Assembly: GCA_964017065.1 (NCBI GenBank)
Contig: OZ024790.1
Span: 11,453,429-11,517,428 of the forward strand
Length of the DNA stretch: 64,000 nt
Direction: 5' to 3'
Source of the DNA: Haliclona indistincta
Lineage: Eukaryota > Porifera > Demospongiae > Haplosclerida > Chalinidae
Of the stretch, positions 263-50,694 are shown in pieces. The translations under genes were made by a program, and so were the position numbers. How positions within the stretch are numbered: the stretch's first letter is position 1; each line of letters begins with the position of its first letter. The notes beneath the pieces were generated by a model, which saw only the letters and a list, made by a program, of their open reading frames with translations, was not told the DNA's origin and made no database searches.

Positions 263-1835
263 TTTGAAAGCAGCTTGATGCTGAAAGCGCTATGGCTATG
301 TAACTACTAGCGAATTTGTTGTAGTTCAAAGCAACGTGCAAAAAGAGAGGACGTTTGAAGAAGTAACTTTTCTGCTCTTGTCTAGCAATTGATATAAATC
401 CTCTATTGACAGTGGTAGGTTTGTAAGTTCATGCATGTACCTGTATAATTATATATGAGATGAAAATGAATTTTTCTGAGTAACATAAACATTATACACA
501 TGCAGGCACAAAATTATATATACATCATTTCACTGTTCACTCACAACAGCTGGAGTACAAATTATTTAAGATTACAGTAAGTAAGTAACACTATAAAGTG
601 TTGTAACTGTAAAATTCTGTGAGATTCTCAGCTAGGACCAAATTTGTCCAAGGTGGATCATTTTCGTTCAAACCGAAAAGTATCTTAGGAAAATTTTGTG
701 GGCGGACAATTTCGGCATCACCGTACTATTGCTGTTCATTGCTCAGTTATGCTACTGGCTACAATCAGGAGCCCATAAGAGGATGGCTCATGCTACAATA
801 CATGTTAGACTATTAAAAATTTAGTTGTTTTAACTATTGTCGGCAGCAACAATGTAGTTTGTTCATCACGGTGAATTGTTCAAACTGCAACTGTATAATG
901 TTTCTATAAGCTAAGTCAACAAGTTCCACTTTCCATATTAGGGCATAATAATTATAATAATATTAATTTTGAAAAGAGGTCACATTTCCTACTTATAGAA
1001 GCTTATAGGGTAGTTTATAGCTTAACTGTAAAGTTTGGTCAATTTTTACAATGGTATAATGTGTAAATATTATACGTAGAAGCTGTGTAGCTACAGATTG
1101 AATGTTGTTAGCCTCATAATTTTAGCTCCCTGTACTGTTTGATCACGAATTTTGAATGTGTACGGCGTGATAAGAATTGACCCCAATTCACATGCTGCTC
1201 AATATGTGAGAAAAAATAGCCGATATCATAGGAGAACTAGTGACACTTTGATATTAATACTGTTTGTGTCACATAGTATTGATGCTGCAACATAAATGCT
1301 CTAGTGTACAAATGACAAAAATAATATTAATAAATTCCTAGTACGGCTAAGAGACGCATACCATACCAACGCGCGCGAGACGACAGCATGATCGATAACA
1401 TATATGCATGCACGTACGTCTACACCATACTCACCACGTCACGTCGTGTATCAACCAGTAGCCGAGTACCTAGTAGCGTCCCGGGTCTCCAGTCGATTAG
1501 AATGGTGACGTGATTTAGCTACGGCACTATGCAGTGGAGTAAACACATTGTAAAAACGTAACAGGGCAGTTAAAATTATAAAAATCTAGCTTAAAACTAT
1601 GCGGCACACCTGCAAATTGTCAGCTAGAAAACGCACCGAGAGAAACTCGCAACTCTTTACTGCAAGACGGTATGCTGATCCCTCGGCTCAGATCACTGAG
1701 ATCACGGTACGGTGCAGCTAGCTAGCTGCATGCGCTGAATAACCTTCACGCATGCGCGATTCAGCCGAGCACGTGCACGCGTCACGTGTACTGCGATTTT
1801 AGTGAATCTTGATATCTAGAGGAATGGATACAGCT
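263..1835. other. intergenic, no gene recognised
   Basis: Upstream region of copy A. AT-rich with a slightly more GC-rich, CpG-containing patch around 1360-1780. Only short unrelated reading frames are present. I see no repeat boundary or RNA gene that I can support. Confidence 0.5.
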
Positions 1836-2408: not shown

Positions 2409-3356
2409 CTTTTGCTGTCTGATCTTCAACTGTTATTGTATAGGACTCTTCCTTTCGATCATATCAAAGTACTCCACTTCTGTAAGACGATTAGGCTGCT
2501 TTGACGTGCTTCATTCATTGCACCAAAAACAGCTGTAGACATGTTGTCAAGCTCTTTTTCCATGTTTGTGATTACAAGTTCCACTTACTCCTTATTAGAC
2601 AGTGCTGATTCATGACGGACCTTTAAATCCTCAGATTCTGGTTACCTTTTCTTGGTAAAGTTCAAATCAATAAGGATTATTTCTGTAAAATGAAAATTCC
2701 ATAGGCAGTTTTTAGGACAGGCTCTGCATTCAACATCTTATCATTGCTGAACAACGGTATTTATCTCCATCATTAGCATACATGCAATCCTGATGACATG
2801 TATAGTTACATGTGAGGCAGTTTGTAGTGTATTACTGCTTGGAAGGTCTACCTTTGACTACTTTAACTACATAAGTGATGTCCTGATTGGCAAGGATATC
2901 AGCTTGACGATCTCTCAACATTTCTCCCTGTTGTTTCAATTCATCAATTTTGCTAAAAAAAATCAGCAGCAATTTGTGATTGCAGCTCCTGAACAGCTGT
3001 TTCCAAGCTTTCACGTTCTTCTCGAAAATCTTGAGATTTCGCAGTTGAAAAGTCTCTGCGAAAAATTCATCAAAACTGTTGTAATTCATTTTCCAAAACA
3101 TGCTCTCAAATTCATGAGCTTGTTGTGATAATTTTGCTGTAAAAAAAGTGCAGAATTATTGAATTTAACGAATGCCTTGAAGGGTACACCAGCGGTTTTT
3201 GCTGCATCAAGAACGGGCGGTCGCTTTCCATCACCTGAAGTGATCATCAGAAAGATGTTACTAGCTATGTCCTTGCCAAAGAATTCGGTCAAATATATAA
3301 CGTTGTGTTAATGTCAGTTGATCTAGAGGAGCCTGAACGACAAAAGCCTATATTCC
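2409..3356 (-). pseudogene. 3' fragment of an SNTX-FN3-GTPase family gene (decayed)
   Basis: The reverse strand aligns by eye with the last third of copies B and C: the end of the GTPase domain (NIFLMIT, RPPVLDA, FKFNNSALF), the following helical region, the Cys-rich patch and the C-terminal coiled coil with an EVEYFD-like remnant. It is broken into several frames by small insertions and deletions, and internal blocks such as the Cys-rich region are shortened. The N-terminal region, FN3 domains and P-loop are absent. It lies upstream of copy A and in the same orientation, so it is the relic of a further array member, not the 3' end of copy A. Confidence 0.85.
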
Positions 3357-3512
3357 AAATAAATATTATAGTCGTGCTATTCTGCTTTTTAGAAACGGCG
3401 CCTTTTCTAAATAAAGCACATTGTTGTACAACAGGGAAGTTTGTATAACATGTAAACAAGGCAGATTCAGACCGACTGCGAGTAATACAGTGAGTCTACA
3501 GTTAATCTAACA

Positions 3513-3855: not shown

Positions 3856-3931
<76 letters not shown>

Positions 3932-11462: not shown

Positions 11463-14400
11463 TCATGATGGCAATAACCACGAAAACCATGCTCTCCAAT
11501 CTTTCTCTGGCTGATCTTCAGCTGTGAAAATAGGACTTGGACTTGTCGTTTTTCCTTCAGTTATTAACTTGGAAACAATCTCTGCCTTTCTTCTAACTCC
11601 TTCAAGTGCTTTTACTCGATCCAACCAGCGAGGTTTAGCTTCACGCTTTTCTGACTCAATCAGGATATCGATGTACTCCACTTCTGTAAGATGATTAGGC
11701 CTCAATGCTATCTCTTGTAAGCGTTCTATGCTTTGACGTGCTTCATTCATTGCACCCAAAACAGCTGTAGACATGTTATCTAGCTCTTCTTCCATGTTTG
11801 TGATTACGACTTCCACTTGCTCCTTATTAGACCATGCTGACTCATAACGGACCTTTAAATCCTCAGAGGTTCTGGTTACCTTTTCTTGGTAAAGTTCAAA
11901 TCGATAAGGATTGTTAACATGCACTTTCCATGAGCACTTTTTAGGACAGACTCCGCATTCGGCATCTTGGGTGCCTCTATTATTGCTCATTGCAGAACAA
12001 CGATATTTATCTCCATCATTAGCATACATGCAATCCTGATGACATGTATAGTTACATGTGAGGCAGTTTGTAGTGTATTTTCCACTGGGAAGGTCTATCT
12101 TACGCTGTTTGGTTTCTTCAACATGATAAGTGAATTCTTTGTTGGTAAGGATATCGGCTTCGTGATCTCTCAACATTTGTTTCTTTTGTCGCAATTCATC
12201 TATCTTTGCTAGACCAGCAGTAATTTGTGGTTGCAATCCTTGAATGGCTGTTTCTAATCTCTCACGTTCTTGCATAACCTCCCTAGTTTGTAGAAGACTT
12301 TGAGCTGTTGTACTGGAAAATTTATCAAAGAAATCCTTAAAGCTTTTCACGCCCATTTTCCAGAACATGCTATCAAATTCATTATCATCTTGTGACGTTT
12401 TTGTTGCAAAAAGTGCAGAATTGTTGAATTTAAAGAATGCTTTTGAAGGCACATCAGCAGCCTTTACTGCATCAAGGACAGGAGGTCGCATTCCATCAGC
12501 AAAAGTGATCATCAGAAAGATATTGTCAGCTACATCTTTGCCAAAGACTGAAAGAATCGAGTCAAACACATATCGCTGTGTTGGAGTCAAGCGTGCCAGA
12601 GGGGCCTGAGTGACAAAACCAATTCCATGTAGCTGGTCAATACCTTCATCACCTTGTATAGAAAATAGCTCCTTGATCTGGCTGACAATATGCTTGTCTC
12701 TCTCTAATCCTTCTGTATCACCAAATCCTGGAGTGTCAATGATCGTAAGCGTGTATTGAAGAGGAGAGCCCTTGTCTTTGTAGAAAGTATAGGCAGTGAT
12801 GTCTTTTGTCTGGCTCTTAGACTGGTCTTGTGAAGTTGGCTCTGCAATTAGCTTGAACCGAAAGTCATCTCGCCAGCGAACACCCAGAATATAATTCGTT
12901 ATACCATTTATCAGAGTAGTTTTGCCAGCTCCAGTGGCTCCTATTACCATTAGTACCTTGTGTGGAACACCCATGGTACGAGTGTGACATGTACATGATC
13001 TGGTGAGACCAAATTTAGACTTTTTAGATCCAACATGAACTTTGACAATATCTTTCTTTCTCATGACACAATGTGTTGGCAGTAAATAGGTTGGCGGATT
13101 GCTTTCTGGAATTTTATCGAGATTTTTATACAGCTTTGCTCCCCAAGGCAAGTCCCTTGTTTCAAAGGGGTCACTGGGCTCACCATACGAGCTAGTTCCA
13201 ATAGCTGTTACTGCAGCAACTCTGAATACATACAACTTATCTGGAGCAGCATCAAATACAATGCTTAATGCAGGACCATTGGACTCTAAATAGTGCAGTT
13301 TTTGTTCAGTAGTAGTTTGATAAGAGATAGAGTAATGCTGAATATCATCATAGTTTGGTTTCTGCCAATTCACTTGAAATTCTGTGTAAGTGACATTAGA
13401 AATAGTAGGCTTTCCCACTGGCGGGGATAGCTTAGTTTCAATTGGTTCACTGAGATCACTTTCTGGGCTGGATTGGGCAGCTGTTTCAGCCCTCACCTTA
13501 AAGAAATAGACTGTTTTTGACTTTAGTCTGGACACATTACATGTGCATCTCTCAACTGAAGAAACTACTCTGAAAGTTTTCCAGTTACCTGTTTCATGTA
13601 TAGCTCGGTAAAAAACCTTGTAACCTGTAATGGTTTTAGCACCATGCTTGGGCTTTTCCCATGTTAGCAATATGGAATTGTGTGTTAAATGTTTAGCATA
13701 TGGCACACCGGGTTGGCTAACAGGCATCCCAGTCTCGATAAAATCACTGGGATCACTATCTGGACTTGGTCCTGTAGCTGACTCAGCTCTCACCTTAAAG
13801 GCATAGAGTGTTTGGGGAGTAAGACCAGACAAGTCTGCATTTACTAGTGGATTAAGAAATTTATAAATTTTAGATTTACCTTGTGGTAAATAACAAGTGA
13901 TAGTGTACGATTGAACAAGCTCAACTCCATGTTTGGGCTTTTCCCAAGTCAGTTGCACACTGTTGGGAGTTATGTATAAGACCTGTGGCGTACCTGGTTT
14001 ACTGGGAGGCAAAGTATTAGTCTCATACACTTCGCTCTCTTGACTACAACCAGCAGCAGTTTCTGCTCTTACTTTTAAACAGTAGACTGAGCCAGGTACG
14101 AGGTTCGTTAAAATGGAACTTTGTGCAGCATCTGGAATTGTTTCTGAAGACCAATGATCTGGTGGATCATTCACGGAGCGATAAGAGATTATGTAAGAAC
14201 TGACATGTTCAGCTCCATGTTTAGGCTTGTCCCATTTTAGGCAAAGGCTATTGCAGGATATAATGGTTGCCTGCAGACCACTTGGCTGACTGGGTAGCTT
14301 GAATGCAGTTGTACACCGAGATCTTTCATACAAAAATATGAAATTAAACTCATCAGCAGTTTCACATTCTCTATTGGTGACGACGTACTTTACAGAGTCG

Positions 14401-15827
14401 TCTTGTCTGCTATGATTAGCAGCTACAAATTTTCTGAAGCATCGAAATTGCTGTCTCATTTCTTGCATGAGTATGTGATTTCTGTACCAAGGTTGTGAAG
14501 GTTTCTTAATCTGACTTACTTCCCTGCCATGTATGTAAGCCTCCATTTTTTCCAGTTGAACATCTCTTCCCCAAGACAACGCAAAGTCAAAGCAGACGAC
14601 TGTCTCTAGATCATTGATAAAAACTTCAACTTCACCAGGCCCAAAGGCCAGATGAACTTGCTGCAGCTTCTTCAAATGCTCAAAATATGTGTCAAGAATT
14701 TTCACTTCGCTTTCTTTTTTTGAAATCCAAGAAGAGAGGGACTGACTACCGAAGGGCGACTGAGAGTTAGTCATAATAATTCTTGCAAGCTCTGCTTCAT
14801 TAGTCTTCCCACAACGAACTTTAGGTAATAACGTTGCCAGAGTCTTTTTCAAGACAGCCTTATAACAATTTATCAGACTATTCAGATTTTCTAATTCTTT
14901 TTTCAGCGAAAAAAATTTGGAACATACCTCAGTTCTGATAAGGTCATTGCTCCGCATTGTAGCATCGTGCAGAGACTCCAAGAGATGGCGGAGTTCATCG
15001 ATCAAACTTGAGCTAATGTCGCACGCTATTCTCTGTATTCTGCTGTCCAACTTGCCTAAAGGGTAGAGTAAAACCTTTTTAGGAACACTGTTTTCTTTTA
15101 GGAGCTCTGGTAGCTCGTGATAAATTGTTGTTGCATCATGAAATGTAGCTGGATACTTTGGTAAATTAAAATCACCATATAATCTGCACTGAAGATTTTC
15201 TTCACTTTTATCAGTGGTATCCATTTTAACAAAGCTAACTACTGGTTTTTTTAAGCCAGGGAGTTCTCCAACTTTTACCTTTAAAGTCCCTTGGATGTCT
15301 TTATTTTCACGACCTTTAACTTCTCTGTCAAAAATGAAGAACGCATCAGCACCATAAACTATGCCAGTGACAACGTGAGTAGCTATGTCTCTGTCAAAGA
15401 CATCCTCATACTCAAACTTTCTCATAGCCAGCTGGCTCATGGTCAGCTGTTCAAACTTTGTAGTAGATTTGTAGTTGAGGGTAACACGAACTTGTCTTTT
15501 AGAAGATTTGTGGTCGTTAAGAAATTCTGCAGCACCCCCAACATTAACCATTCCACTAAGCAAACTGAGCTGTAAGCTAGCATCAACACCAAGGCAAGAA
15601 ATCTTTTTGCTCAATGTATCTTCAGCTACGACCTCAAAATCAGAGGTCTCTAATGGTGTCTTAGACATGGCATTCCCGAGTGCTTCTGAACCCCAGAGGG
15701 TAACACCAGGAATCAGACTATCAGTACGACAATCATACAACATTCCAAGTTTAAATGGTCGCCCTAAACAGGGCTTCTCAAGGGTATCGACACATTTGAC
15801 TACCGACAGAAAGTCATCAACAGACAT
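11463..15827 (-). CDS. SNTX-FN3x4-GTPase protein, copy B (1454 codons, intronless)
   Basis: One open frame of 1454 codons. In order: an SNTX-family N-terminal region (about 1-265, LGMLYDCRTDSLIPG), a helical stretch (about 265-395), a thioredoxin-like SNTX segment (about 395-505), four fibronectin III domains (about 505-905, each with a KWDKPKHGAE- or TWEKPKHG-type strand), a GTPase domain with P-loop GATGAGKTT near 961 and DTPGFGDTEG near 1030, a Cys-rich patch (about 1250-1310, CLTCNYTCHQDC... CGVCPKKC) and a charged coiled-coil tail. The GTPase resembles GIMAP/AIG1 proteins but reads ITFADG where NKxD or THGDD would be expected. No signal peptide or membrane span is seen, so it is probably cytosolic. 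The SNTX region alone does not make this a venom toxin. Role inferred: defence GTPase or membrane remodelling; untested. Confidence 0.85.
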   Translation of the reverse strand: MSVDDFLSVVKCVDTLEKPCLGRPFKLGMLYDCRTDSLIPGVTLWGSEALGNAMSKTPLETSDFEVVAEDTLSKKISCLGVDASLQLSLLSGMVNVGGAAEFLNDHKSSKRQVRVTLNYKSTTKFEQLTMSQLAMRKFEYEDVFDRDIATHVVTGIVYGADAFFIFDREVKGRENKDIQGTLKVKVGELPGLKKPVVSFVKMDTTDKSEENLQCRLYGDFNLPKYPATFHDATTIYHELPELLKENSVPKKVLLYPLGKLDSRIQRIACDISSSLIDELRHLLESLHDATMRSNDLIRTEVCSKFFSLKKELENLNSLINCYKAVLKKTLATLLPKVRCGKTNEAELARIIMTNSQSPFGSQSLSSWISKKESEVKILDTYFEHLKKLQQVHLAFGPGEVEVFINDLETVVCFDFALSWGRDVQLEKMEAYIHGREVSQIKKPSQPWYRNHILMQEMRQQFRCFRKFVAANHSRQDDSVKYVVTNRECETADEFNFIFLYERSRCTTAFKLPSQPSGLQATIISCNSLCLKWDKPKHGAEHVSSYIISYRSVNDPPDHWSSETIPDAAQSSILTNLVPGSVYCLKVRAETAAGCSQESEVYETNTLPPSKPGTPQVLYITPNSVQLTWEKPKHGVELVQSYTITCYLPQGKSKIYKFLNPLVNADLSGLTPQTLYAFKVRAESATGPSPDSDPSDFIETGMPVSQPGVPYAKHLTHNSILLTWEKPKHGAKTITGYKVFYRAIHETGNWKTFRVVSSVERCTCNVSRLKSKTVYFFKVRAETAAQSSPESDLSEPIETKLSPPVGKPTISNVTYTEFQVNWQKPNYDDIQHYSISYQTTTEQKLHYLESNGPALSIVFDAAPDKLYVFRVAAVTAIGTSSYGEPSDPFETRDLPWGAKLYKNLDKIPESNPPTYLLPTHCVMRKKDIVKVHVGSKKSKFGLTRSCTCHTRTMGVPHKVLMVIGATGAGKTTLINGITNYILGVRWRDDFRFKLIAEPTSQDQSKSQTKDITAYTFYKDKGSPLQYTLTIIDTPGFGDTEGLERDKHIVSQIKELFSIQGDEGIDQLHGIGFVTQAPLARLTPTQRYVFDSILSVFGKDVADNIFLMITFADGMRPPVLDAVKAADVPSKAFFKFNNSALFATKTSQDDNEFDSMFWKMGVKSFKDFFDKFSSTTAQSLLQTREVMQERERLETAIQGLQPQITAGLAKIDELRQKKQMLRDHEADILTNKEFTYHVEETKQRKIDLPSGKYTTNCLTCNYTCHQDCMYANDGDKYRCSAMSNNRGTQDAECGVCPKKCSWKVHVNNPYRFELYQEKVTRTSEDLKVRYESAWSNKEQVEVVITNMEEELDNMSTAVLGAMNEARQSIERLQEIALRPNHLTEVEYIDILIESEKREAKPRWLDRVKALEGVRRKAEIVSKLITEGKTTSPSPIFTAEDQPEKDWRAWFSWLLPS

Positions 15828-18800
15828 TCTGGAATCAGCACAAAAAGTGCCACTAACTACAGGCTAGCCAATTATTTTAAGCAGTTATTTGCAAAGAATC
15901 GTACATTCAATGATCGGAAAGAAAAATACTGCAGCTGGCAATGTGTTGCAAGGTTTTGTCTAGTAGAGCAAGGTTATATTTCTTGCTATGTTATATAGTC
16001 CTTGTGCGGATACCTGTGTATGGAATAGAATTTTTTAACTTCACAACTGTTTGAAATAAAAATAATATAAGGTTGTTGCTGGAAAGCGGAAACGCTCGTG
16101 ATACCACAGACGTTACTTTTAACAAACAAAGCTCGCCGTATCAAGTTAGAGCATAGACTAGATTTTGTGTTGCACAGAAGAGGTAACTTGACGCGCGCTA
16201 CCAGAGAACGAGACGAGGTGCACGAAGAAACAAAGAGACTTTTCTAATTTTATTGTAGATGCAAAGTTATCGCTAGCTAACGTGCTTCGACTAGCATCTC
16301 TTCGCAATCCGATCATATTTATGAATATTAATTAGCAGCTGAATCCAGCTACTAAGAAGCTGATTGGTCAAATATGTCAATGAATTCATGAATATTAACA
16401 ATGTGTGCTAAATCTATGGTGCTAGTAGCCTAGTACCCCTCATTCGACGCGCTCCGTCCCCTATCGCCACACCCCTCGAGTCGATAGAGGGTCCCAAAGC
16501 TCGCTAGACTAGTCACAACATTGACCATAAGTTTAGCTTTCACATTCTATTCAGCCAATAATCCGAAAAAGCACCCCAATTAAGCTATTATCCAAACAGA
16601 ATTTGAAAAATCAAAACATTTTAAAAGGGGCTCACAGTACACAAGTAGGGAACAGCCTATACTAGCTTATACAAGTAGTATACATACAGGCACGAGCCAC
16701 AGTTAAGTTTTGTTGTGTATAGTGCACATGTAGTTATGGATGCTGTTCTATTGTACAACATACATGCAGTCTAACAACTTAAGTTTTTAACAAACACAAG
16801 TAAGCTTCACTGTGTACTTACTGAGCCAAAAGTCTCTCTATGAACACCATTTCTGAGTTTCTATACTAAGGGTTAAGGCTACCGACTTGTCACATTCCTG
16901 AGTTTCAGCAGAGCTGTTTTTGCTTTTGGTGTGTTTTTTTAGATTATACACACGTACAATGCGTTGACTGTTTTTGATGCAATCGGTAAACACGTGATGA
17001 TGTCCCTAATCTGGTCATTTAACTTGCCCCAAGGGTGACCGGTTACACTGTATAAGCTTTTGACAAACTAAAAGATGCATGTGAAGCATACAGTTTGTGT
17101 AACCGGCATACAGCTATCAGTTTGTGTAAGTAACATGGCTGCATGTATTATATGACACTGTATCTGTTAATGTTAGTATTCCATCAGTCACTGAACAGCG
17201 TTGTGCCCAAGTACTGAATAGTGGGCACCAAATGCATGATGAGTACACTATACATGTATAAGGATTCAAGATAGAACAAAAATCTAATACTATACATAAA
17301 GATTCTAAGACCTAACAATTCCAAATTCCTTATATAATTATATATTGGAAAGTTGCATAGTAATACACATGTTGAGTGGCGGAAATATCGTTGCGCTATT
17401 GAAGTTGTATGCTCTTTGGAACAATAAGCAGCTACTGAGATTCTAGAACAATAGTATGCAGGAATTTTAATGTATGTCGTACATAATAGACCATGCAGAT
17501 GACTTCCCTAGGCATTCTCCAGCTGCATGGAGTGTCAAAATAGGCTAGGGTTTGAGTTTTGGCCTTTGGACGGCTCACAGTATCAAACTTCTGAAATCCA
17601 TCGCTGGTAGGGTGGCCCTTTCAGCTAACATCTCGAAAAGTCTGGCATACTCCAATCTCATCCAGCAGCTCTCCATCAAGTTATGGTCTTTCAATGCCAA
17701 AATGATATTATTCAGACTGCACTCCTTGTCTCCCACTTTGCATTTTGCTTCTTCCTTTTTTGATTCTGTCTACACTAACCATTTATTAACTTAGAACTTT
17801 TGTTTGTCGCAGCCCTCTGGCGCTGCCTTTTATGTGTATTATTTTTATTGTACTTTTTGTATGATAATAGTCAGTCGCACGCATTATCGGCCGCGTACAA
17901 GCGCGCACTGCCTTCATGCGGTCGCGCCTGACATCAAAATTGCGTGAGTATCAAAAATTAAACTATACTGTACATGCAAGTAAGACTGATACGTGCCGTG
18001 CAGCAAAATCACTGAGTAGATACTTACCATACGGCTATCGGACTTATACAGGCTGTCACGGTAGGATAGACGTTGATTCCTGAGTTTCTACTCTGTAAAA
18101 GGTAGCCTGGCGCGGCAGGTAGCTGTACTGTGTAGGTGCGTACCGTTGTATTTATACTCAGATTGATCTGAATGCGTTATAGCATAATGATGAAATCTTC
18201 ACGCATGCGCATAAAATTATTATTACGCGCAACATCATCATGGGCCCATGGGATACGCGCGTCGCATCAAACTAGCTACATGTAGCTCAAACGCTAGCAA
18301 TGCTAAGCTAACTCAAGGCATGCATGCACCGCACGTTCAGCTTCTCTGCAGTCAGTGTGTGAAGTAAGAATTTAAACTGTAACACTGCAGAAAATTTATA
18401 GCACCACAAGGACAAAGGCTGAAATTAAATTTTGACCAATCTCAGGCTACGGTCCTACATGTAGTCTGTATGTGTCCTCCACCCCCACATGCTTAGTCAA
18501 GCATTCAGAAATTAATAATTATAACAATTAATACCAAGTGATCAATGTGTTAACAATAATATCCAAATTCTTAACATAGCCATGTCATACACTATTACCA
18601 AATACTATGGAGGAATACTACATTCTAAGTATAGTGCATGAAAACAGCTAGTTTTAGAAACTAAGAACTGCTTCTACCTCAACCTGTACATGTATCACAA
18701 TGTTTTTGAATGGCTAAGAGGCCTATGCATATTTTCGCCTATGTATTAAGTATCCACATATTTAGAGAATAAAACCTGTGCAAATTTGAACATCTAAGAA

Positions 18801-19141
18801 TTTAAACAGAGGCTTTGCTAAACCTTCATACAGCCACATTATAATTAATTCACTGTGTGTAGTAGCTAGCTGTGTACAATAATTGTTGTACTGATTCAGT
18901 TTGCACCTTACAAGATAAGACTTTCTAGCAGCAATTAAAAGCTAGTTTTTACAATGAGCCTGCGCACTCACCTACCTGTCTTCGTATTAGTGGAGCCATA
19001 GGGGGTAAGTTGGGCAGCAGGGAGAGCAGATGTTTAATATCGTGTCAAACAATCGGAGAAGAAAATACCGAATTAAAATTTATTCTAACTTACTGTGTAC
19101 GTGCCAAAAATAAAGAATTAACTTCTAAAAAACGAGATTGT
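15828..19141. other. intergenic, no gene recognised
   Basis: Upstream of copy B and downstream of DPY19L. AT-rich, with several short palindromes (for example around 16318-16400 with TTTATGAATATTAAT and TGAATTCATGAATATTAA). A short frame at 17552-17794 has on its reverse strand a protein-like stretch (SCWMRLEYARLFEMLAE) that may be a decayed coding relic. The two direct GTGTAACCGG-type motifs near 17040-17100 may mark another small element. Nothing firm. Confidence 0.45.
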
Positions 19142-22100
19142 TTATTCAGCTGTGCTTACTCTAAGTACTCTGTAATGTTTATTAGCAAATACTAGTTTAA
19201 ATGGAGGAGGAATGAAGGAAGACAGTAGAGCACAGAATATGCCATTCGCACGATCTTCAGGAAATTCCTTATCATAAACCTGAATCAATGAAAACCAATA
19301 CTCAAAAATTGACAATCAATTTCTAATTTTTTTTAGTGTGATCATGTTCAAATGTGAGATACAGTGGAACACACGAAGAGAGTAGAAAGATGTGTTTTTG
19401 TTTCCTATCTCAGAAATTAATTGACTATTTACATGCTCTATCCTTACTGAAGCTCATGAAGTATATGGCTCCTCATCACATGACATGCACATGACACAAA
19501 TTAGCGCTCTCTATGTGCATGAAGTAGAACACGTTTGGTTAATAATCTCGGCAACTGTTGGTAGTTAAGAGATCATAAAAGATATTTGAACTGTGCTCCA
19601 GTTAAGAAAATATCAAAACACATTTTTCTGCTTTCTTCGTGTGTTCCACTGTACTTATATAGCTACTATGGTTAGTTACCTCATGAAAGGCACAGCCTGG
19701 TCGATATTGTCTGTGACACCAGCTATCTTCTACAATGACATAATCAGCTTGTAAGTCACGCAGGGTAGCATGGATAGTAGCAGAGCTACGTCGACTGTAT
19801 ACAGTGTAGATCTGCTTGGTTCTCTCTCTGTGGGTTGAAAATGAGCAAATCTGTCAAAGATATTTCCCAACCTAATGCCAGCGTCTTCGTAATGGGGATG
19901 GTTAATAATTGGTCTACCAGTAGCAAGCTTCACAGTAGCCATTGTGGGCATCACTCCGGCAAAAGACGAACCTGAAATGCAAAGTTACTTGAATCCTAAA
20001 TAGCAACCACAGTAGTGTATCCATAAGGCACCTTTTGGTGTGCTACTGTTAATCCATAACACCTGTAGTGTAAAAAATAAAGAAGTATTAAAATTATGTG
20101 GTATAAGTTACCAATGCTTACCAATTCTTCCATTTCTGGGTGGTTAAACTCTCCTGTAACTGACTACAAACACACACACACACACACACACATCTTAATC
20201 TGATCACTGTACAGTATTGCTCACTATCTGACCACTGAGGTTCCATAGACCAGTTACAGAAGCCATTACAATAACTCCGCCTACCAACCACTTACGTTGA
20301 CGACCAGACAGCATCCACATAACCTAAACAAAACAATAACTAACGTCACAGCGAGAGGTCTACTCTTAACCCTTGGGTCACCAAAATAAGCTAAGGGTTT
20401 TGTACAAAGCTCAATTTCTATTCTGGTAACACAATGTAAGTTTTCGTTGCATCGTGCCGTGACCTCTGTGTATAGTGACCTTTTTGCTACAGAGCAGTCC
20501 AGCTGTGACAGTGAGGTGAGGAGTCAGGAACAGCTTCAACCTCATGATCAACACAGCCAGCACAGCAAACAACAGCGACTGAATAACATTGTAGCACATC
20601 TGTATAAAGGCATTATAACATCAAGTGCACCATTATGACACATGAAACACAAACCTCCGGTAAATGTTCATTTTCAAGAACTCTATAAAACATAGTTTTG
20701 TTCAGGGTTTTATAGATGATAGTGCAGTAATCTTACTTGTTACTATCAGCAGTACTAGCCTTAGAGTCACTAGCATCAGTAGTAGTAGAACTAGTGGACA
20801 CTATCCACAGGTTAGTAGCCAGGTAATACAGTACCTACACAGTCATAATTGTTGAGATTTATAAAACTCAAAAATTTATGCGAACCTGGTAAATAACTAT
20901 TAATGAAGTGACCACACCCACTGGAATCAGGAGAGTAAGACAGAGCTTGCCAGCATAGCTCAGTGAGAGGAAGTCAAACTCTAAAGCACATGTGTACAGT
21001 TGAGTGTGAAAGTCCGAATAGGATGTGAATTTTGACAATAGCAAAGCACCAATATGGCTCTATAAGAAAAGAAAAAATATTACATTATAACATGAGTGGA
21101 AACGGCACAGAACTTGCTTTACAGCATCACAACATGCGTCCCTACATAGCCAGCGACTCTTGACTGTAAAGTACATGGTTCACAGCTTACACGCGATACT
21201 GTGACAATTGTTTGTTCACAATTTTTTTTGACGTGCAGTGTATAAAGATCGAGGGGGTCAAAAATGCTTGAAATCATGCATCATCATCGTATATGCTGCC
21301 TGGTCAAATCACCGCTGAAATCATAGCATTCTCGTATGCTTATAATTATACTAACACCCATACTCAACTAAATTCTGAAATCATAAAAATCTTTAAAAAC
21401 CCTTCAGAGTAGATAACAAAATGTTAGATAAGTGAAATTCATGAAATGCAACCTACGTCATCATCAGCTCCGATTAGTCTAGATATCGCTGTCTTCAACA
21501 GTACAGTACCAGTCGTCCAGAACAACACTTCAAGTACCTATAATGAACAAGATGTGTGACATGGCTGCTAGCAGTTCGTACAGCTTACAGCACTTAGCAG
21601 GAGCAACCTGACACAGTTGAACAACCACCGAAACTGTGTAACAATCTAAAGAAAATATCAGTGTAGTAAAATTCTTTAGCACACATGGTCAACAGGGTTC
21701 TCGCTAGGATTAGGAAGCCAAATGGATCAGTAGCTATTATACCCACACCACAGCATCTAATATACTACTTCGAATACCTGTCCCAGTGGATAGAAGATGA
21801 TTACTTGTTTATACACATGTAAAAACACCAACTTATCCTAATACCCAAATGGATCACAGTGAAGCCTAAACCAAATGGATCTAGGAAAACCAAATGGTGT
21901 GATCCATTCAATAACTGCCTAGCAAGAACCCCGATGGTCAATTGTGCTGACACTTTCGCAAAAGTTTTGGTGTTAGAAATTTCGTCATCCATTCTTGTGA
22001 CGAAAATCAAAGCATGGTTAACATGCAGCGACGAAAATTAAATAATCTGAAAATAAATATTTTTATAGACAATCTACTCATCAATGGGATAGCAGTCTAC

Positions 22101-24297
22101 AACTATAGCACAGCTTACCAGACTAACGAGCAAACCAGCTGCAAAGTAAGACGAAAGTAGGAGAACATTTCCAAACTGAATCACGATGTTGACAACCAAT
22201 GCGGACTATACAAAGATCAAAAATAATGAGTAATTTCATGATTCACTTACAAAGAGAGATAGGACTATTCCAATGAACTTATGTTTGGGTATCAATCTGA
22301 TCGTGTAGATAGCAAATAAACCAGCTACCTGTGACAATAGATAGAGAAATCACAAACAATCCAGAATTGCCCGATGAAAAAGATCAGCTTGCATGAACAC
22401 ACCTGTGTGAGTAGAGTGAACTGTGCAAACTGTAAGAGAAGAATACTCAGTGAATAATAGCACAGCCGTCATATAGTTGTACAGTACCTGCCAAGGTATC
22501 ATAAATGCTACAGACAACACAGTCAACAACAGGTACCAAAGAATGCCCACTTTCTTCTCCCTAGGTACAGATACGTGTATGTTATCCACGAGCTTGTTTG
22601 TCTGTACCTCAGTATGTGAGTGACACACAGCAGTTGCAGAGGAAGAAGAGGCATTGAGAAACTTTCTCTTAATGGTGGAGTCCACATTACACGTGTTGCC
22701 TACTCAGATAAGTGATGAGGTAATGAATTTTGAATTCATGTGTAAACTAACTTCCCCATGGTTATAAAAAAACATGGCTGCAGAGAGAGCACCACCTAAT
22801 ACACTGTCACTGAGGGAATGGAGTAACTTAACCAAGATGCATTCACTACATACAGACCTGAGGTAGGATGATAGCAGGAATATACCAGCTGGTAGAAGTG
22901 CATTGAGCGCAAAGATGCAATAGACATAGAAATAGACCGGTTCGCCAAATCCTGCAAAATATATTATTATGACTTGTAATGATTATTATTTTTCATTTTA
23001 TTGAGCTTGTAACGTTGAATAGTTCCTAAACAAAAACTTAATAGTCTACAAATCAAGCCCAACTGTAGCAAAATTTTTCATAAATGTAGAAATTTTACGC
23101 ATGAATAATCTCATTTTTTAAATGGTGCCCTCAAGTGCGAAAATTTTCTATACATTTCAAAAGTTTACATGGTCATCTGGACAAAAAAACGCAATTTTTT
23201 TTCACGTTTACGGTATTCAAATAACACTCGCAGTACAGTAAATTGGGTGCTTACCTGAGCACGTGTCCACAGGAGGCAACCCATAGCCTCTCTTGATGGT
23301 ATAGCAAGTTGTACCAGTCACTTTGACACTTTTCAGTACAGCTGCAAGACCACGATAACTTGCACCCAGTACCACCTGCAATTAGTATTGGTAAGACATG
23401 ATAAAATCAGTCATTTTTCAACGTGTTTTCTCGCATTTACATCACATGACATACTTCTATGCAAGCACTTTGATAGTATCAAACTTGGTATGCTCAAATT
23501 TTGACTTGGTATGGCCAAATTTTTATAGTATCAAACTTGGTACGCTCAAATTTTTATAGTATCAAACTTGGTATGTTCAAATTTTGTGATAAATGAGGAC
23601 TTACCTCTGGGTAAAGATTGAAGCGTTTCAGTGTGTTAATAGTAGAAGGATACTCCGTCATGTTGTCATTCAATAGCAGCTGTAATCCACTGGTAAACAA
23701 TGGAGCCTCAACTAACGTCTTGTAGTACGAATAATACAGTCCCTAGAGCCAGGTGAGTTGAAAATGTGTGGTAAAGTAGACAATGACAGGCTGACCATTT
23801 CAGTTCTAAAGGAGAGTTCTCTTTCCAGCGGAGACAGGTGAGTGAAGAAACGATCATTTTCAAACAAGTGGTACAAGTGTTGGCTGAAACACATAAAATC
23901 GATACACACCTGATCTAGCACTGTGACACTCTGTTTTACCTGTGTATTGCTCCTATCAGTAACCCTGAGTAATAAAAAAACAGACATGCATTATGCAGGT
24001 GAGGTGGCTTGTAATTTTACTGTACAAATACAAGCTAGCTTGCTTGCTTGCTCACAACGCGTTATGTATACTGCTTTCCAAGTTACAGGCTAAGCCCGCT
24101 GAGCTACAGAGCTAGCTTCAGCGCTAACCTACTCCCAGCAGAATCAGACTCCGCCTTGTGATGATGGCGTCCTTGCTCTCCAACGAGCTAGCGCTGCCGC
24201 TACTGCGCGTGTGAGCGGAGTCTTGGCGTTTCTTCTTTGCCAGTTTCGACTTGGAGCGACCAGAAGACTGTCTGTTCCTCGTATTCGACTGGTCCAT
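19142..24297 (-). CDS. DPY19L: DPY19-like C-mannosyltransferase
   Basis: Twenty-one exons assembled by hand, reading down from 24297: 24129-24297, 23940-23964 (25 bases), 23796-23883, 23605-23742, 23255-23375, 22858-22951, 22752-22809, 22608-22699, 22488-22560, 22403-22429, 22251-22328, 22119-22205, 21457-21537, 20886-21059, 20480-20599, 20225-20323, 20122-20163, 20032-20062, 19872-19971, 19680-19827, 19142-19279. They total 661 codons. Diagnostic stretches: [65 protein letters not shown] and [23 protein letters not shown]19 proteins are multi-span ER enzymes that attach mannose to tryptophan in WxxW motifs, notably of thrombospondin repeats. The N-terminus is basic and cytosolic, followed by many hydrophobic segments. 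FHIT lies 92 bases upstream on the same strand. A broken partial copy sits at 45.1-47.8 kb. Confidence 0.93.
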
Positions 24298-24389
24298 AGC
24301 GCCAGGCTAGAAAGAAACGGAACTGACTGGGACAAATCACGTGTTAGGTGGTATGTCCCGATAATAATAAATAAAAATTAATTAGTTTG

Positions 24390-25181
24390 CTATTGAAAGT
24401 GACCGGCTAAAAGCTTGGCTTCGTCCTCCATTTCTTGGAGACTCCTAAACTTTTTCACTTCTACAGATTCGCTCTCTTTATCATGACGCTGCAGCTACAG
24501 ACAGCAATACAAATGATCAGTTATTTTTATCGAATATTTTGCAAACCTCTTCATAAATATCGTCATTTCTTTGAAAGTCTCCTGGTCTCCTCGGAATGAT
24601 ATGGACATGAACGTGTTCCACAGTTTGACCAGCATCACGACCATCCTGTAGAATATCAAAATGCCCTGTAACTTAGTTGCATGGCCGCTATGCAAACAAG
24701 CACTGTTCATTTCACATTTTACACTGCAGTAACAGATTTAGCTAGATCATAAAATTCAACAAGACAAAATAATAATTTTTTTACTGCTGTGGGCATATGA
24801 GATGCATTCTTATCACTCAACTTGAACTGCAATTGTCAGACTGGTAGCATTGTACAATTTCTCTATCACTGGCGCTATCCGATGAACACTGGTGAATAGA
24901 TCAGATACTTCCTGTGGAGTGAGCCCACTAAAACGAGGAACAACACGCTTGCTGCTGACAAGCACGTCTAGTTGCAATGACAGCTGAGAAAATTAGACTG
25001 CCGACACTCGATCGGACCATAGTTTATACTGGCCGACCAACTTCATGACAATACAAATCAACCTTAAGTTAAGGATACGTCCAGGTACTATGGGCTTTCT
25101 GTTAACGAAAGCATAACTGAGGTGAGTCTGTAGGAACACCACGGAGACGCTAATCACGTTTCTTCCAAAATGGACCGCCAT
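24390..25181 (-). CDS. FHIT: FHIT, bis(5'-adenosyl)-triphosphatase
   Basis: Four exons (25079-25181, 24822-24967, 24547-24645, 24390-24494) give 150 residues, against 147 in human FHIT. The protein begins [18 protein letters not shown], continues [20 protein letters not shown], carries the histidine triad HVHVHII and ends [16 protein letters not shown]... GHFQ. HIT hydrolases of this branch cleave dinucleoside polyphosphates such as Ap3A, with the central triad histidine as nucleophile. The stop lies 92 bases before the DPY19L start on the same strand, so FHIT's 3' UTR must overlap or abut the DPY19L promoter, unless both are made as one transcript. A partial copy is at 47.8-48.4 kb. Confidence 0.95.
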
Positions 25182-26015
25182 GACTTTTCCGGATTTGAGC
25201 TCCACCCACACTTTGCAGTGTCACACAACTTAATCGGCTTTGGAGGTATCACCTTTATCAGAATATAGTCTAGCATCAGTGACACACCTAGCTAGTCCAG
25301 GCTACAGCTTCAGAGTTGAGACAGACGTTTTTTACTAGCACTATTATGCATGTGACCATTATCTATCATGTGGCACAAGAACAGTGCTCGTAATATTTCA
25401 GAGTTCACAATCTCTTTTCCAAACCTTTCTCCACTTTGACATCTTGCAGTATCAATAATTATAACCTGGCTTAGCCTTAGAGTAGACTACCTAATCTCAA
25501 AATGATGGTCAGACAACGTGCAATGCAGAAAACATATTTTACGAAAAAATTAATCATTAATTAGATAGCCATGCTCAGGCCATGCTTATAATTATGCATA
25601 CATGGCTCTTGTTCAAAAGCTAAAGCTTTATAATTCAAGTACGTACAGGTATAGACGTGTATTGTTTGAAAAATACAACTTGACTATCATAGGAACATGT
25701 TATTGAAAATCATCATTTGATCAAATCATAATTAATAATTTAAGTCCTCAGTTGTTCTACATAAAATTAAACACTCTAATCATAATTCAAAAAAGGAAGG
25801 AGAAAAAAACAAAAATAAACTCAAAAGAACTACACAAAACAAACAATAAAAACAACAAAAAAACTAAAGCAGATCAGGTAAAGGAGATAAAGATTACAAG
25901 TACCTATAAGTCAAAGAGAGCGTTTCCTTCTTGAATAGCCATTGATAAGGCTGCTTAAGGTATTTCATGCTTAACTAACATTTACAACAATTACTGTTTT
26001 AATCACTCTAATTGG
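25182..26015. other. intergenic between FHIT start and copy C stop
   Basis: Contains the FHIT promoter side and the 3' flank of SNTX-FN3-GTPase copy C. Very A-rich around 25780-25870. No gene, repeat boundary or clear regulatory motif that I can support. Confidence 0.45.
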
Positions 26016-29000
26016 TCAGGATTTGTGAAATGGATTCAATTTATTGAAGAGGCTTCTCCACATACTCTTTTCTTCCACTGTTTCTTCCACAAAAAGGGGA
26101 CTCTGTTGTCTTTTGGGATTCTTCATCAACTCTGAAACGATCTCGGCTTGTCTTCGAACTCCTTGTAGTGCTTGTATCCTGTCTAGATAACGAGGTTTAG
26201 CTTCAAGCTTTTCAGATTCAATCAAAATATCAATGTATTCAACTTCTGTAAGATGATTAGGCCTCAGTGCTATCTCTTGCAAGCGTTCTATGCTGGTACG
26301 TACTTGATCTATTTTACGCAAGACAGCCATGTTCATTTTATCCAATTCCTTTTTCATTTCTATAATCACATCTTCCACTTGCTCTTTATTGGACATAGCT
26401 GACTCGAATCGCTTCTTTAGCTCCTGGGAAGTTCTGGTTTCCAATCCATCATAAAGCTCAAATCGGTAAGGATTATTAACATGCACCTTCCATGAGCAAT
26501 TACCAGGACAGACACCACATTCAGCACTACGGGTATCTCCATTTCTGCTCATTGCTGAGCATTTATATTTGTCATCATCATTAGCATAAATGCAATTGTC
26601 ATGACAAGTATAGTTACATGTGAGGCAGTTTGTGGTGTATTTTCCTCTTCGAAGATTAATCTTTCGCTGCTTGGTTACTTTGACTTGGTAAGTAAAGTCT
26701 TTATTGGTGAGAATATCGGCTTCTCGATCTCTTAGCATTTGTCTCTCTTGGCGTAACTCATCAATCTTTGCCAAACCCGCAGTGATTTGTGGTTGCAATC
26801 CCTGAACAGCTATTTCTAGTTTGTCACGCTCATGCATAACTTCTCTGGTTTGTTGAAGACTTTGAGCTTTTGCTGTTGAAAATCTGCTGAAAAATTCATC
26901 AAAGCTCTTAACCCCCATTTTCCAGAACATGCTATCAAATTCATCATCTTGTGATGCTTTCGCTGCAAATAGTGCAGAATTGTTGAATTTAAAGAATGCC
27001 TTTGAGGGTACATTAGCAGCCTTTACTGCATCAAGGACAGGAGGTCGCATTCCATCAGCAAAAGTTATCATCAGAAAGATATTGCCAGCTACATCTTTGC
27101 CAAAAATAGAAAGAATAGAGTCAAATACATATCGTTGTGTCGGTGTCAGTCTCGCCAAGGGGGCTTGAGTGACAAAACCAATCCCATGTAGCTGATCGAT
27201 ACCTTCAGCTCCAACAATAGAAAAAAGTTCCTTGATCTGGCTGACAATATACTTGTCTCTGTCTAGTCCTTCGGTGTCACCAAATCCTGGAGTGTCAATG
27301 ACTGTAAGAGTGTATTTAAGAGAGGAGTTGTCTTTGTAGAAAGTATAGGCAGTGATGTTCATTGTCTGGCTTCTAGACTGATCTTGTGAAGTTTTTTCTG
27401 CAATTAGCTTGAAACGGAAGTCATCTTCCCAATGAACACCCATGATGTAGTTGGCCATGCCATTTATCAGAGTAGTTTTGCCAGCTCCAGTGGCTCCTAT
27501 TACCATGAGTACCTTGTGTGGAACACCCAGGTTGTGTTCAAGACATTTGCATGTATTGTTGGCACCATAAGATTTTGACTTTTTAGAATTAGGAGCTGAT
27601 GGTCCAACATGAACCTTAAGAATATCGTGCTTTTTCATGACACAATGTGTTGGTAACAGATATGTCGGAGGATTGCTTTCTGGAATTGGGTCAAGACCTT
27701 TGTAAACCTTAGCACCCCAAGGCATAGTCTTTGCTTCAAATGGATCACTGAGTTCACTATATGAACTAGTTCCAGCAGAAGTTACTGCAGCAATTTGAAA
27801 TACATACTGCTTATTCTGAGCAGCATAAAAAGAGATATGTTCTGTGAGACTGTCGGTCACCAGAGAATGCCAAATATGGGGTTGTTCATCAGTTTCTTGA
27901 TACAAGATGGAATAGTACTCAATGCCAGCATAATTCGGTCTCAGCCAGTTCACTTTAAAGTGTTTGTAACTCCTATTGGAGACAGTAGGCTTCCCTAATG
28001 GTGGAGGTAGCTTAGTTTCTATTGGATCAGTGAGTTCACTCTCAGGACTACTTCCCACAGCAGTTTCAGCTCTCACCTTGAAAAAATAGACCGTTTTTTG
28101 TTCTAGTCTAGTCAAGCTGTACCTCCCTATAGGTGAAGATAATCTGTAAGAATTCCAGTTATCATCTGGCTCATCCACTGTGCGAAAGAAAATTGTATAG
28201 CCCTTGACAGTGTCAGCACCATGTACGGGCTCATCCCACGTCAACTCAATGCTGTTATGAGTTATTTCAGTAGCACAAGGCTTACCAGGCTGACTAATAG
28301 GCAATGGAGTTTCGATTAAGTCGCTGGGGTCACTTTCTGGACTAGATCCTGCAGCAGATTCAGCTCTTACTGTAAAGATATAAGTTGTTTTTGGAGTAAG
28401 TTGAAAGAGATCGGCACACTCTTGTGGTTTAGATACTGTGCTTGATTGAATTGGCGTACCATCAGGAGAGTGAAAAGTAATGGTGTATGACTGAACAAGT
28501 TCAGCTCCGCGTTTAGGCTTTTCCCATGTCAGTTGCAGACTGTTATAGGTTACATTAGAGGCTTGTGGTTTGCTAGGCTTATCAGGAGGCATTGTAGTAA
28601 CACATTCTTTACTCTCTTGACTACAACCTGGAGTGGTTTCTGCTCTTACTTTTAAGCAATAGGTTGTTCCAGGAACAAGACCGGCCAACACACATTGCTC
28701 CTCAGCATCTGTGGCTGTCTGTGAAAACCACTGATCTGATGGATCGCTCCTGGAGCGATAAAAGAGTGTGTAGTAGTTGACACTAGCAGCTCCATATTTG
28801 GGTTTTTCCCATTTTAACAGAAGGCTATCACAAGATAGGACAGATGGCTGCAAACTACTTGGTTGATCTGGTATCTTAAATGCAGTAGCAAATGCACTTT
28901 CATACAATAAAACAAAGACAAACTTGTCATTTGTTTCTTCAGCAATATCAATGTCACTATTAGTGACAATGAATTTTATAACATCACTTTGTTTGGTGTG

Positions 29001-30446
29001 ATTAGCATTTACGAACTCTTTAAAGCAGAGAAACTGTTTTCGCATCTCTTGCATGAGAGGCTTGTTTCTGTACCAAGGTTGTAAAGAGGTATTCAGATTT
29101 TCGACACTGCCACGAAGATAAGCTTCCATTTTCTCTAAGTAAACATTACTTGTCCAAGATATTCGAAAGTCAAAGCAGAGAACTGTCTCTATTTCAAGAT
29201 CATTGATGAAAACATCTACTTCACCAGGCCCAAATGCTAGACAAATTTTTTCCTGCTGTTTCAAGTGTTTCAAATATCCAGCGAGAATTTGCACCTCGTT
29301 CTCTTTTTCTGAAATCCAAGCAGAGAGAGATCGACGGCTGAAGGGCGATTGAGAATTGCTTTTAAGAATCTCTGCAAGCTTTGTCTCATCCATTCCACCA
29401 CCACGAACCTTGGGTAGCAACGTAGCCAGGGACTTCTCTAAGTCAGTCCTGTAGCCATCAATGAGATCATTTAAATTCTCGAGTTCATCCTTTAGACCAT
29501 GAAAGCTAGAACACACGTCAGTTTTCATAAGGTCATTGCTACGCATTGTTGTTTCATGAAGTGATTCCATGAGTTGGTGGAACTCATCGATCAGCCTGGT
29601 GCTAATTTCGCTTACCATCCTTTGTGCTCTGCTGTCTAACTTGCCAAGAGGGTATAGCCAGACTCTTTTTGGAACACTTTTTCCTTTCAAAAGCTCTGGT
29701 AGCTCTTGATAAACTTTGGCTGCATCACGAAATGTTGCTGGGTGATTTTGAAGAATAAAATCTCCATAGAACTTGCAATGAAGCTTTTCCTCTTCATCCT
29801 TACCAGCATTATCAATGTCAATGGAGATTTCCCCTTCACCTGGCAGCTTTTTTAGGCTAGGTAGTCCTCCTACCTTTACCTTCAATTTTCCATAGATGCT
29901 TTTAACATTTTCACCACTGTCTGCTTCTCTGTCAAAAACAAAGAAAGCATCAGCACCATAAACCATGCCAGTGACAACGTGAGTAGCTATGTCTTTGTCG
30001 AAGACATCCTCGTACTCAAAATTTCCTAACTGATCCATTGTCAGCTGTTCAAACGTGGTAGTTGATTTGTACTTAAGAGTAACACGAGCTTGATTTTTGG
30101 AGGATTTGCGATCATTAAGAAATTTTGCAGCACCCCCAACATGTACCATACCACTTAGCAAACTGAGCTTTAAGCTACTATCAACACCAAGATGAAAAGT
30201 CTTCTCCTTGAGGGTGTCTTCGGTAATGACCTCAAAATCAGATGTTTCTAAAGGTGTCTTAGACACAGCTGTTTTAAGTGCTTCTATACCCCAAAGGGTT
30301 ACACCAGGTATCAGACTATCTGTACGACAATCATAGAGCATTCCAAGCTGGAACGGTTGCCCCAAACAGGGCTTCTCTAAGGTGTCAGCTCGTTTGACTG
30401 TTGAAAGACAGTCATCAACAGACTTGAAAGCAGCCTGAAGACTCAT
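26016..30446 (-). CDS. SNTX-FN3x4-GTPase protein, copy C (1476 codons, intronless)
   Basis: Single open frame of 1476 codons with the same architecture as copy B: SNTX-family N-terminal region (LGMLYDCRTDSLIPG), helical and thioredoxin-like SNTX segments, four fibronectin III domains, GTPase with P-loop GATGAGKTT near residue 984 and DTPGFGDTEGLDRDK, the ITFADG motif, Cys-rich patch (CLTCNYTCHDNC... CGVCPGNC) and a coiled-coil C-terminus (PNHLTEVEYIDILIESEK shared with copy B). The start used, MSLQAAFKSVDD, is longer than in copies A and B. The GTPase and C-terminal region are nearly the same in B and C, while the FN3 block differs much more. The lack of introns in a 4.4-kb frame contrasts with the 12 to 21 exons of neighbouring genes. 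Confidence 0.85.
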   Translation of the reverse strand: MSLQAAFKSVDDCLSTVKRADTLEKPCLGQPFQLGMLYDCRTDSLIPGVTLWGIEALKTAVSKTPLETSDFEVITEDTLKEKTFHLGVDSSLKLSLLSGMVHVGGAAKFLNDRKSSKNQARVTLKYKSTTTFEQLTMDQLGNFEYEDVFDKDIATHVVTGMVYGADAFFVFDREADSGENVKSIYGKLKVKVGGLPSLKKLPGEGEISIDIDNAGKDEEEKLHCKFYGDFILQNHPATFRDAAKVYQELPELLKGKSVPKRVWLYPLGKLDSRAQRMVSEISTRLIDEFHQLMESLHETTMRSNDLMKTDVCSSFHGLKDELENLNDLIDGYRTDLEKSLATLLPKVRGGGMDETKLAEILKSNSQSPFSRRSLSAWISEKENEVQILAGYLKHLKQQEKICLAFGPGEVDVFINDLEIETVLCFDFRISWTSNVYLEKMEAYLRGSVENLNTSLQPWYRNKPLMQEMRKQFLCFKEFVNANHTKQSDVIKFIVTNSDIDIAEETNDKFVFVLLYESAFATAFKIPDQPSSLQPSVLSCDSLLLKWEKPKYGAASVNYYTLFYRSRSDPSDQWFSQTATDAEEQCVLAGLVPGTTYCLKVRAETTPGCSQESKECVTTMPPDKPSKPQASNVTYNSLQLTWEKPKRGAELVQSYTITFHSPDGTPIQSSTVSKPQECADLFQLTPKTTYIFTVRAESAAGSSPESDPSDLIETPLPISQPGKPCATEITHNSIELTWDEPVHGADTVKGYTIFFRTVDEPDDNWNSYRLSSPIGRYSLTRLEQKTVYFFKVRAETAVGSSPESELTDPIETKLPPPLGKPTVSNRSYKHFKVNWLRPNYAGIEYYSILYQETDEQPHIWHSLVTDSLTEHISFYAAQNKQYVFQIAAVTSAGTSSYSELSDPFEAKTMPWGAKVYKGLDPIPESNPPTYLLPTHCVMKKHDILKVHVGPSAPNSKKSKSYGANNTCKCLEHNLGVPHKVLMVIGATGAGKTTLINGMANYIMGVHWEDDFRFKLIAEKTSQDQSRSQTMNITAYTFYKDNSSLKYTLTVIDTPGFGDTEGLDRDKYIVSQIKELFSIVGAEGIDQLHGIGFVTQAPLARLTPTQRYVFDSILSIFGKDVAGNIFLMITFADGMRPPVLDAVKAANVPSKAFFKFNNSALFAAKASQDDEFDSMFWKMGVKSFDEFFSRFSTAKAQSLQQTREVMHERDKLEIAVQGLQPQITAGLAKIDELRQERQMLRDREADILTNKDFTYQVKVTKQRKINLRRGKYTTNCLTCNYTCHDNCIYANDDDKYKCSAMSRNGDTRSAECGVCPGNCSWKVHVNNPYRFELYDGLETRTSQELKKRFESAMSNKEQVEDVIIEMKKELDKMNMAVLRKIDQVRTSIERLQEIALRPNHLTEVEYIDILIESEKLEAKPRYLDRIQALQGVRRQAEIVSELMKNPKRQQSPLFVEETVEEKSMWRSLFNKLNPFHKS

Positions 30447-50607: not shown

Positions 50608-50694
50608 TTATATTGTGTCTGATCCATCACGTCAGCTTCTTTTTGCAACGACAGAAGAGGTCGTGTCATCAGCATCGACGTGGCAAGGTGTGGC

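Follow-up and report, generated by a model that had tools for sequence, protein, structure and literature searches.

Genes B and C and their domain layout

The window is a stretch of 64,000 nucleotides from the sponge Haliclona indistincta (contig C8, 11453429-11517428, of a 144 Mb, 46-contig genome). It holds two intact genes, which we call B and C, that join a stonustoxin-like (SNTX) region to fibronectin type III (FN3) domains, a GTPase and a tail with a Cys/His cluster (Table 1). An earlier note on this DNA had described two intact intronless genes, an edge fragment and a decayed fragment, in tandem on one strand, and this description stands: both genes are one-exon open frames, the two fragments (copies A and D) are present, and the domain content and arrangement hold.

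Table 1. Coordinates in the window of genes B and C, their domains, and copies A and D.
Feature	Position	Strand	Basis or remark
Gene C	26016..30446	(-)	Intact, 1476 aa, single open frame; SNTX-FN3x4-GTPase-Cys/His tail
C MACPF/CDC-like domain, residues ~21-280	29607..30386	(-)	Pfam MACPF_SNTX and predicted model
C FAT-like helical domain, residues 283-396	29259..29600	(-)	Stonustoxin_helical and model
C thioredoxin-like domain, residues ~401-516	28899..29246	(-)	Thioredoxin_11 at 409-496 and model
C FN3 x4, residues 526-614, 621-712, 717-810, 814-904	27735..28871	(-)	Pfam fn3
C septin/GIMAP/Toc-type GTPase, residues ~976-1190	26877..27521	(-)	P-loop at 984, DTPGFGD at 1051
C two long predicted helices (~1198-1240, ~1354-1392), Cys/His cluster 1274-1322 between	26271..26855	(-)	Model secondary structure and conserved motif columns
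Gene B	11463..15827	(-)	Intact paralogue, 1454 aa, single open frame; domain order of C; 67% identical to C
B SNTX region (MACPF, helical, thioredoxin), residues 1-508	14304..15827	(-)	Pfam
B FN3 x4, residues 512-889	13161..14294	(-)	Pfam fn3
B GTPase, residues ~955-1170	12318..12965	(-)	P-loop at 963, DTPGFGD at 1031
B Cys/His cluster, from residue 1255	11919..12065	(-)	Motif search
Copy A, first part only (residues 4-94)	2..277	(-)	Remainder left of window edge, contig C8 11449275-11453705
Decayed fragment D, covering just the GTPase-to-tail part (C residues 1086-1408)	2457..3362	(-)	Five tblastn pieces, two frames, stops

All three Pfam families of the SNTX module score above cut-off in both genes and in the same order: MACPF_SNTX (38.2 bits in B and 34.8 in C, cut-off 27), Stonustoxin_helical (80.9 and 89.3 bits) and Thioredoxin_11 (43.5 and 48.9 bits). 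The fn3 family matches four stretches in each gene (160.5 bits in B, 155.6 in C). In the GTPase, the Septin profile (33.5 and 40.9 bits, cut-off 26.2) scores higher than AIG1, which is marginal at 28.4 and 27.1 bits against a cut-off of 27. The domain search thus finds the SNTX, FN3 and GTPase parts that had been assigned from the letters alone. The PRY-SPRY families (PF13765, PF00622) are not among the 25 best of the 29 (B) or 32 (C) Pfam families with E<=1. A phmmer search of C against the PDB has stonustoxin beta at the top (E 3.4e-85, residues 21-480) together with stonustoxin alpha (E 1.7e-82, residues 23-480), a likeness far beyond chance; among the 60 matches listed, the solved relatives of the GTPase part are septin 2 entries, with E from 5.7e-5. 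Stonustoxin, verrucotoxin and the SNTX-like cytolysins (PDB 4wvm) share with B and C the order of MACPF/CDC, FAT-like helical and thioredoxin-like domains over about 460-500 residues, but the C-terminal PRY-SPRY of stonustoxin is replaced in B and C by the four FN3 domains, the GTPase and the Cys/His coiled-coil tail.

The likeness between B and C is highest in the GTPase (88%) and lowest in FN3 (57%). The ratio of nonsynonymous to synonymous divergence (dN/dS) is 0.24 in the MACPF domain, 0.17 in the helical domain, 0.27 in thioredoxin, 0.25 in FN3, 0.14 in the GTPase, 0.11 in the coiled coil, 0.28 in the Cys/His part and 0.12 in the tail, and purifying selection of this kind (0.11-0.28) indicates that both genes are in use. 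The dS value is lowest in the GTPase, 0.50 against 0.66-1.44 in the seven other parts, which hints at local gene conversion. For eight further gene pairs dN/dS reaches 0.86, with none above 1 and some undefined. Positive selection as the sign of an arms race was not found: dN/dS is below 1 wherever it is defined in the nine pairs, with several dS values saturated.

Past the window edge copy A is a nearly full gene with one in-frame stop near residue 166, which sits inside a short insert containing an inverted repeat; its second part has four FN3 domains, the P-loop, DTPGFGD and the Cys/His motif.

The family in this genome and in other animals

The family had been called expanded, and we count at least 32 loci genome-wide: 23 with both modules, 1 with SNTX only, and 8 with the GTPase-tail only (fragment D included). 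Loci are same-strand matches grouped across gaps of up to 5 kb, and all counts are lower bounds. The SNTX module of C has 29 matches in the genome, its GTPase-tail has 52, and PF18078 alone is found in 22 places. The SNTX-only locus consists of two pieces, one of them with stops. The Pfam scan covered 19 of 20 extracted loci, and L016 was searched only by motif and FN3 profile. A single open frame spans everything between SNTX and the Cys/His motif in 11 of 22 loci (B, C, L011, L014, L015, L017, L020-L023 and L026); the other 11 are broken, cut or without the pattern. In genes read through the FN3 part, the number of FN3 domains goes from 1 to 9, with nine each in L017 and L019 and internal identities up to 78%. 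Other departures from the layout are L019 (G000:C8:7353900-7363500), a 2094-codon frame in which its nine FN3 domains and two GTPases follow one another; L029, where positions 2179-4614 (-) hold an 812-codon frame with an FN3 match and the GTPase-tail, without an SNTX match and with a first part unmatched to C; and L030, a GTPase-tail frame of 570 aa standing alone.

Protein searches gave 669 hits for the whole protein, 1510 for a catshark query and 679 for the SNTX module; the distribution described here is among the best 120 listed for each, so that a group's absence is uninformative. Proteins with SNTX, FN3 and GTPase occur in catsharks, other sharks, rays, Callorhinchus, sturgeons and many teleosts, and in the tetrapods Ambystoma, Lissotriton, turtles, Pogona, Podarcis, Zootoca, Alligator, ostrich and rhea; a Bombina protein has two modules in one chain. 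The complete architecture of B and C, including the Cys/His tail, is present in LOC119976518 (Scyliorhinus canicula) and LOC120392694 (Mauremys reevesii). In 106 relatives of 1150-1350 aa, the P-loop and the Cys/His pattern are each found in 101; 90 have two FN3 domains and 16 have one. Vertebrate relatives of this length thus have two or one FN3, whereas B and C have four. Most SNTX-FN3-GTPase relatives are named uncharacterized or hypothetical, and a few are named "stonustoxin subunit alpha(-like)", "Verrucotoxin subunit beta" or "Fibronectin type-III domain-containing"; a function is not given in these names. The SNTX-module query also lists proteins of Amphimedon, rotifers and ostracods and SNTX-FN3 proteins, and SNTX-SPRY or SNTX-FN3-SPRY proteins appear in Callorhinchus and turtles. 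In the sponge Amphimedon queenslandica, P0256 has the SNTX module alone, in contrast to the full layout of B and C, and P0264 has SNTX-FN3-GTPase with a P-loop like C, but is 770 aa long and without the Cys/His pattern, perhaps as a partial model; the Amphimedon rows are 42% identical to the SNTX module of C. The design is conserved between this genome and vertebrates up to the tetrapods, and partly so in Amphimedon. The earlier note was correct that related predicted proteins exist in other animals, and it understated how old and widespread the whole design is.

Relatives with SNTX alone or with the GTPase-tail alone, such as L030, are what one would expect if the fusion were an artefact of neighbouring genes read as one. 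We reject this explanation, whose probability we put close to nil: the frame is uninterrupted in B and C and runs from SNTX to Cys/His in half of the 22 loci, the order is identical in many other assemblies, and all regions are under purifying selection.

For the order in which the layouts arose we used a tree of 76 hand-picked SNTX modules, 18 from this genome and stonustoxin itself not included, built by a quick method without bootstrap and drawn from the midpoint. The tree follows the vertebrate groups, with layouts mixed within groups. Within the cartilaginous fishes (99), Callorhinchus has three SPRY rows that cluster with one another (support 100) and then with the GTPase row of the same genus (91), and four turtle SPRY rows fall inside a reptile and ostrich GTPase clade (support 99). 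As drawn from the midpoint, the Amphimedon rows do not group with the copies of this genome. A tree constrained to unite the seven SPRY rows is worse by 423 log-likelihood units (approximately unbiased test, p 0.00387, a value to be read with care since the SPRY group was tested after the tree was seen). In phmmer searches against stonustoxin, the GTPase-fused teleost protein Anoplopoma P0213 (444.6 bits) scores above the SNTX-only teleost P0337 (430.3), with catshark (407.8), turtle (395.3) and C of the window (289.5) lower; a Callorhinchus SNTX-SPRY protein has 449.3 bits, with the SPRY domain included in the match. Because the SPRY rows nest separately in GTPase-fused clades, and in view of the phmmer scores and the Amphimedon row, SNTX-FN3-GTPase looks like the ancestral layout, and the SNTX-SPRY venom layout like a derived one that arose more than once. 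Repeated swaps of this kind could also be mimicked by gene conversion among paralogues or by gene models that were fused. Since the design spans sponge to turtles, the family looks old and the venom toxin a late branch of it.

Of 69 rows, 46 have both modules, and in these the SNTX distances correlate with the GTPase distances (0.57; the maximum in 2000 permutations is 0.23). In 34 of the 46, the row closest by SNTX is also one of the three closest by GTPase, so the fusion has mostly been passed on as a unit. Few forks of the GTPase tree are strong, and L010 stands out in it as an extreme row. The GTPase-tails of L010 and L013 are far diverged, both with 40% identity to C, and L010 has an end branch of 4.25, yet its MACPF domain is still 69% identical; in these two loci the GTPase switch may have been replaced or relaxed.

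We regard it as improbable that the protein is a released toxin, used like stonustoxin for chemical defence or as venom against predators or competitors. The homology to stonustoxin does extend across the whole SNTX region, and stonustoxin-like transcripts are counted among putative platypus venom toxins (PMC4014732). Against this, a GTPase with an invariant nucleotide site would be useless outside cells. The same architecture is present in sharks, turtles and lizards, which are not known for venom of the stonustoxin type. Inspection of B and C, without a signal-peptide program, shows no hydrophobic stretch at the N-terminus, though stonustoxin too is said to lack one.

Predicted structure and possible function

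The MACPF/CDC fold of the N-terminal region is predicted with good confidence. The model of C that includes the MACPF/CDC-like domain has a predicted local distance difference test (pLDDT) score of 87.2, and its fold matches are 4wvm and other MACPF/CDC proteins, mixed with designed helical proteins that match the helical domain. MPEG1/perforin-2, perforin, complement C8 and C9 and the bacterial CDCs share this fold over about the first 280 residues, but identity is 8-14%, TM-scores are 0.2-0.3 over the whole model, and they are without a GTPase. By topology, two helix clusters of the model (~residues 76-118 and ~176-222, limits that are our reading of it) correspond to the membrane-inserting segments of MACPF proteins. 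The first of these places, unlike the second, is as conserved as the MACPF domain overall (mean entropy 1.37 vs 1.46 bits), and in both places alternation of beta type is above that of shuffled sequences (mean z 1.65 in the first, 61 rows, and 1.72 in the second, 60 rows; for comparison, 2.07 in a core strand, -0.37 in the helical and 0.08 in the thioredoxin domain). Together these figures are weak evidence that membrane insertion has been kept.

B and C share the GTPase fold of the septin/GIMAP/Toc superfamily, and the predicted model is closest to Toc34 and GIMAP. The P-loop GxxxxGK[ST] and DTPG are invariant in our GTPase alignment (A2). The canonical G4 motif is [NT]KxD; here its place reads T-F-x-D, with T199 and F200 invariant and D202 conserved in at least 90% of the alignment. 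The term "GIMAP-like" in the earlier note therefore holds at the level of the fold, but we do not accept plain GIMAP membership, as Septin scores above AIG1 and the canonical G4 is absent. In sum of likeness and difference, the fold, the P-loop and DTPG are common to GIMAP (AIG1), Toc34/Toc33 and septin, and B and C differ from these in G4, in the fusion to MACPF and FN3, and in the long helices with a Cys/His cluster. The Cys/His motif columns are invariant or conserved in at least 90% of 66 aligned rows. Beyond what had been described as a Cys-rich tail, this part holds a conserved zinc-finger-like motif flanked by two long helices of the model, which we read as a coiled-coil hairpin. Fold matches of the GTPase-tail model cover residues 17-460, with the GTPase dominating them; therefore we do not claim the Cys/His part and the C-terminal helices as a new fold.

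A cytosolic GTP-switched membrane effector, as the earlier note suggested, is consistent with these findings and is our best guess, though unproven. Tentatively, we propose an old animal family of large proteins that would combine a MACPF/CDC-type SNTX module with a membrane-type GTPase as a GTP-triggered cytosolic effector, likely in cell-autonomous defence. Proteins of the B/C type would probably rest in soluble form in the cytosol, and a signal would be received, or partners held, by the variable FN3 array and by the coiled coil with its Cys/His cluster. On membranes, septins, GIMAPs and Toc GTPases form pairs or polymers; GTP binding could let the GTPases do the same here, and their assembly might align the MACPF domains for insertion into the membrane of a microbe, of its vacuole or of the own cell. 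The fish venom cytolysins would have re-used the family late, with B30.2 (PRY-SPRY) taking the place of the FN3-GTPase part. The stronger historical claim, that the family has consisted of intracellular GTP-gated MACPF pore-formers since before sponges and vertebrates split, with the stonefish toxins derived by exchange of FN3-GTPase for B30.2, we think unlikely on balance.

Several observations weigh against a pore-forming defence effector. The MACPF and GTPase parts are strongly conserved, which is unusual for a part facing pathogens, and even the faster FN3 and thioredoxin parts have dN/dS below 1. The second membrane-segment place is poorly conserved (mean entropy 2.12 bits vs 1.37 in the first), and its residues 201-208 have low confidence in the model. 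Some proteins with a MACPF fold, such as astrotactin-2, which is in our list of fold matches, are not regarded as lytic. In fishes, expression of neoverrucotoxin subunits is lowered in grass carp group I, and one salmon family has mainly reduced sntx-b; fish studies of SNTX-annotated genes in infection, vaccination or resistance settings have mixed directions.

The strong conservation, the closeness of the GTPase to Toc34 and GIMAP folds, and the weak second segment would suit a non-lytic membrane scaffold, in which the MACPF domain is an oligomerising or lipid-binding platform for trafficking or membrane shaping and makes no holes. We consider this possible but rather doubtful: the close homologue stonustoxin is a cytolysin (one with four domains and a 20-subunit pre-pore, according to the review PMC8704401), beta-type alternation is kept in both segment places, and tandem expansion with decay of copies would be more typical of defence genes. 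We favour the GTP-triggered MACPF effector over the scaffold. In known animal pore-forming executioners the trigger is proteolysis (gasdermins), secretion (perforin) or a cascade (complement). If the GTP-triggered effector is real, linking MACPF to a GTPase within a single chain would be a trigger of another kind, one that many animals have conserved. The family also offers a testable origin for the fish venom cytolysins.

The architecture is real, old and undescribed in the searchable literature. In full-text searches, whose hits were mostly viewed as listings and which left most subscription papers and the 2015 stonustoxin structure paper outside, we found no SNTX-FN3-GTPase paper and no characterised member, in line with the earlier note. 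According to PMC10566576, the stonefish genome has 28 sntx genes, of which 20 are scattered and differ in length. In that study, the evolutionary analysis of the toxin genes dropped sequences above 120% of the expected length, a filter that would exclude GTPase-fused relatives; the words "GTPase" and "fibronectin" are both absent from the main text of PMC10566576.

Other features of the window

On the minus strand, 58498-61512 holds open reading frames that we take to resemble a TRP-type channel, the sole search match within them being an ankyrin match below cut-off at 59926-60246 (-). Pieces of a tyrosine-kinase gene lie at 43603-45002 (-), with PF07714 strong in 43603-44079 and below cut-off in 44448-45002. 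On the plus strand, 3571-3855 is a piece of an SRCR domain (PF00530), and 10590-11030 is an open reading frame with a hydrophobic stretch and a proline-rich tail, without a Pfam match; the two may be the ends of a single receptor gene that lies between copies A/D and B. Two pairs of duplicated stretches are found, one in three pieces of 86-92% identity (22078-25185 and 45353-48401), and one that is 91% identical (36760-38849 and 48665-50726). The latter holds the open reading frames 38131-38748, an F-box by Pfam, and 50005-50607, which is alike.

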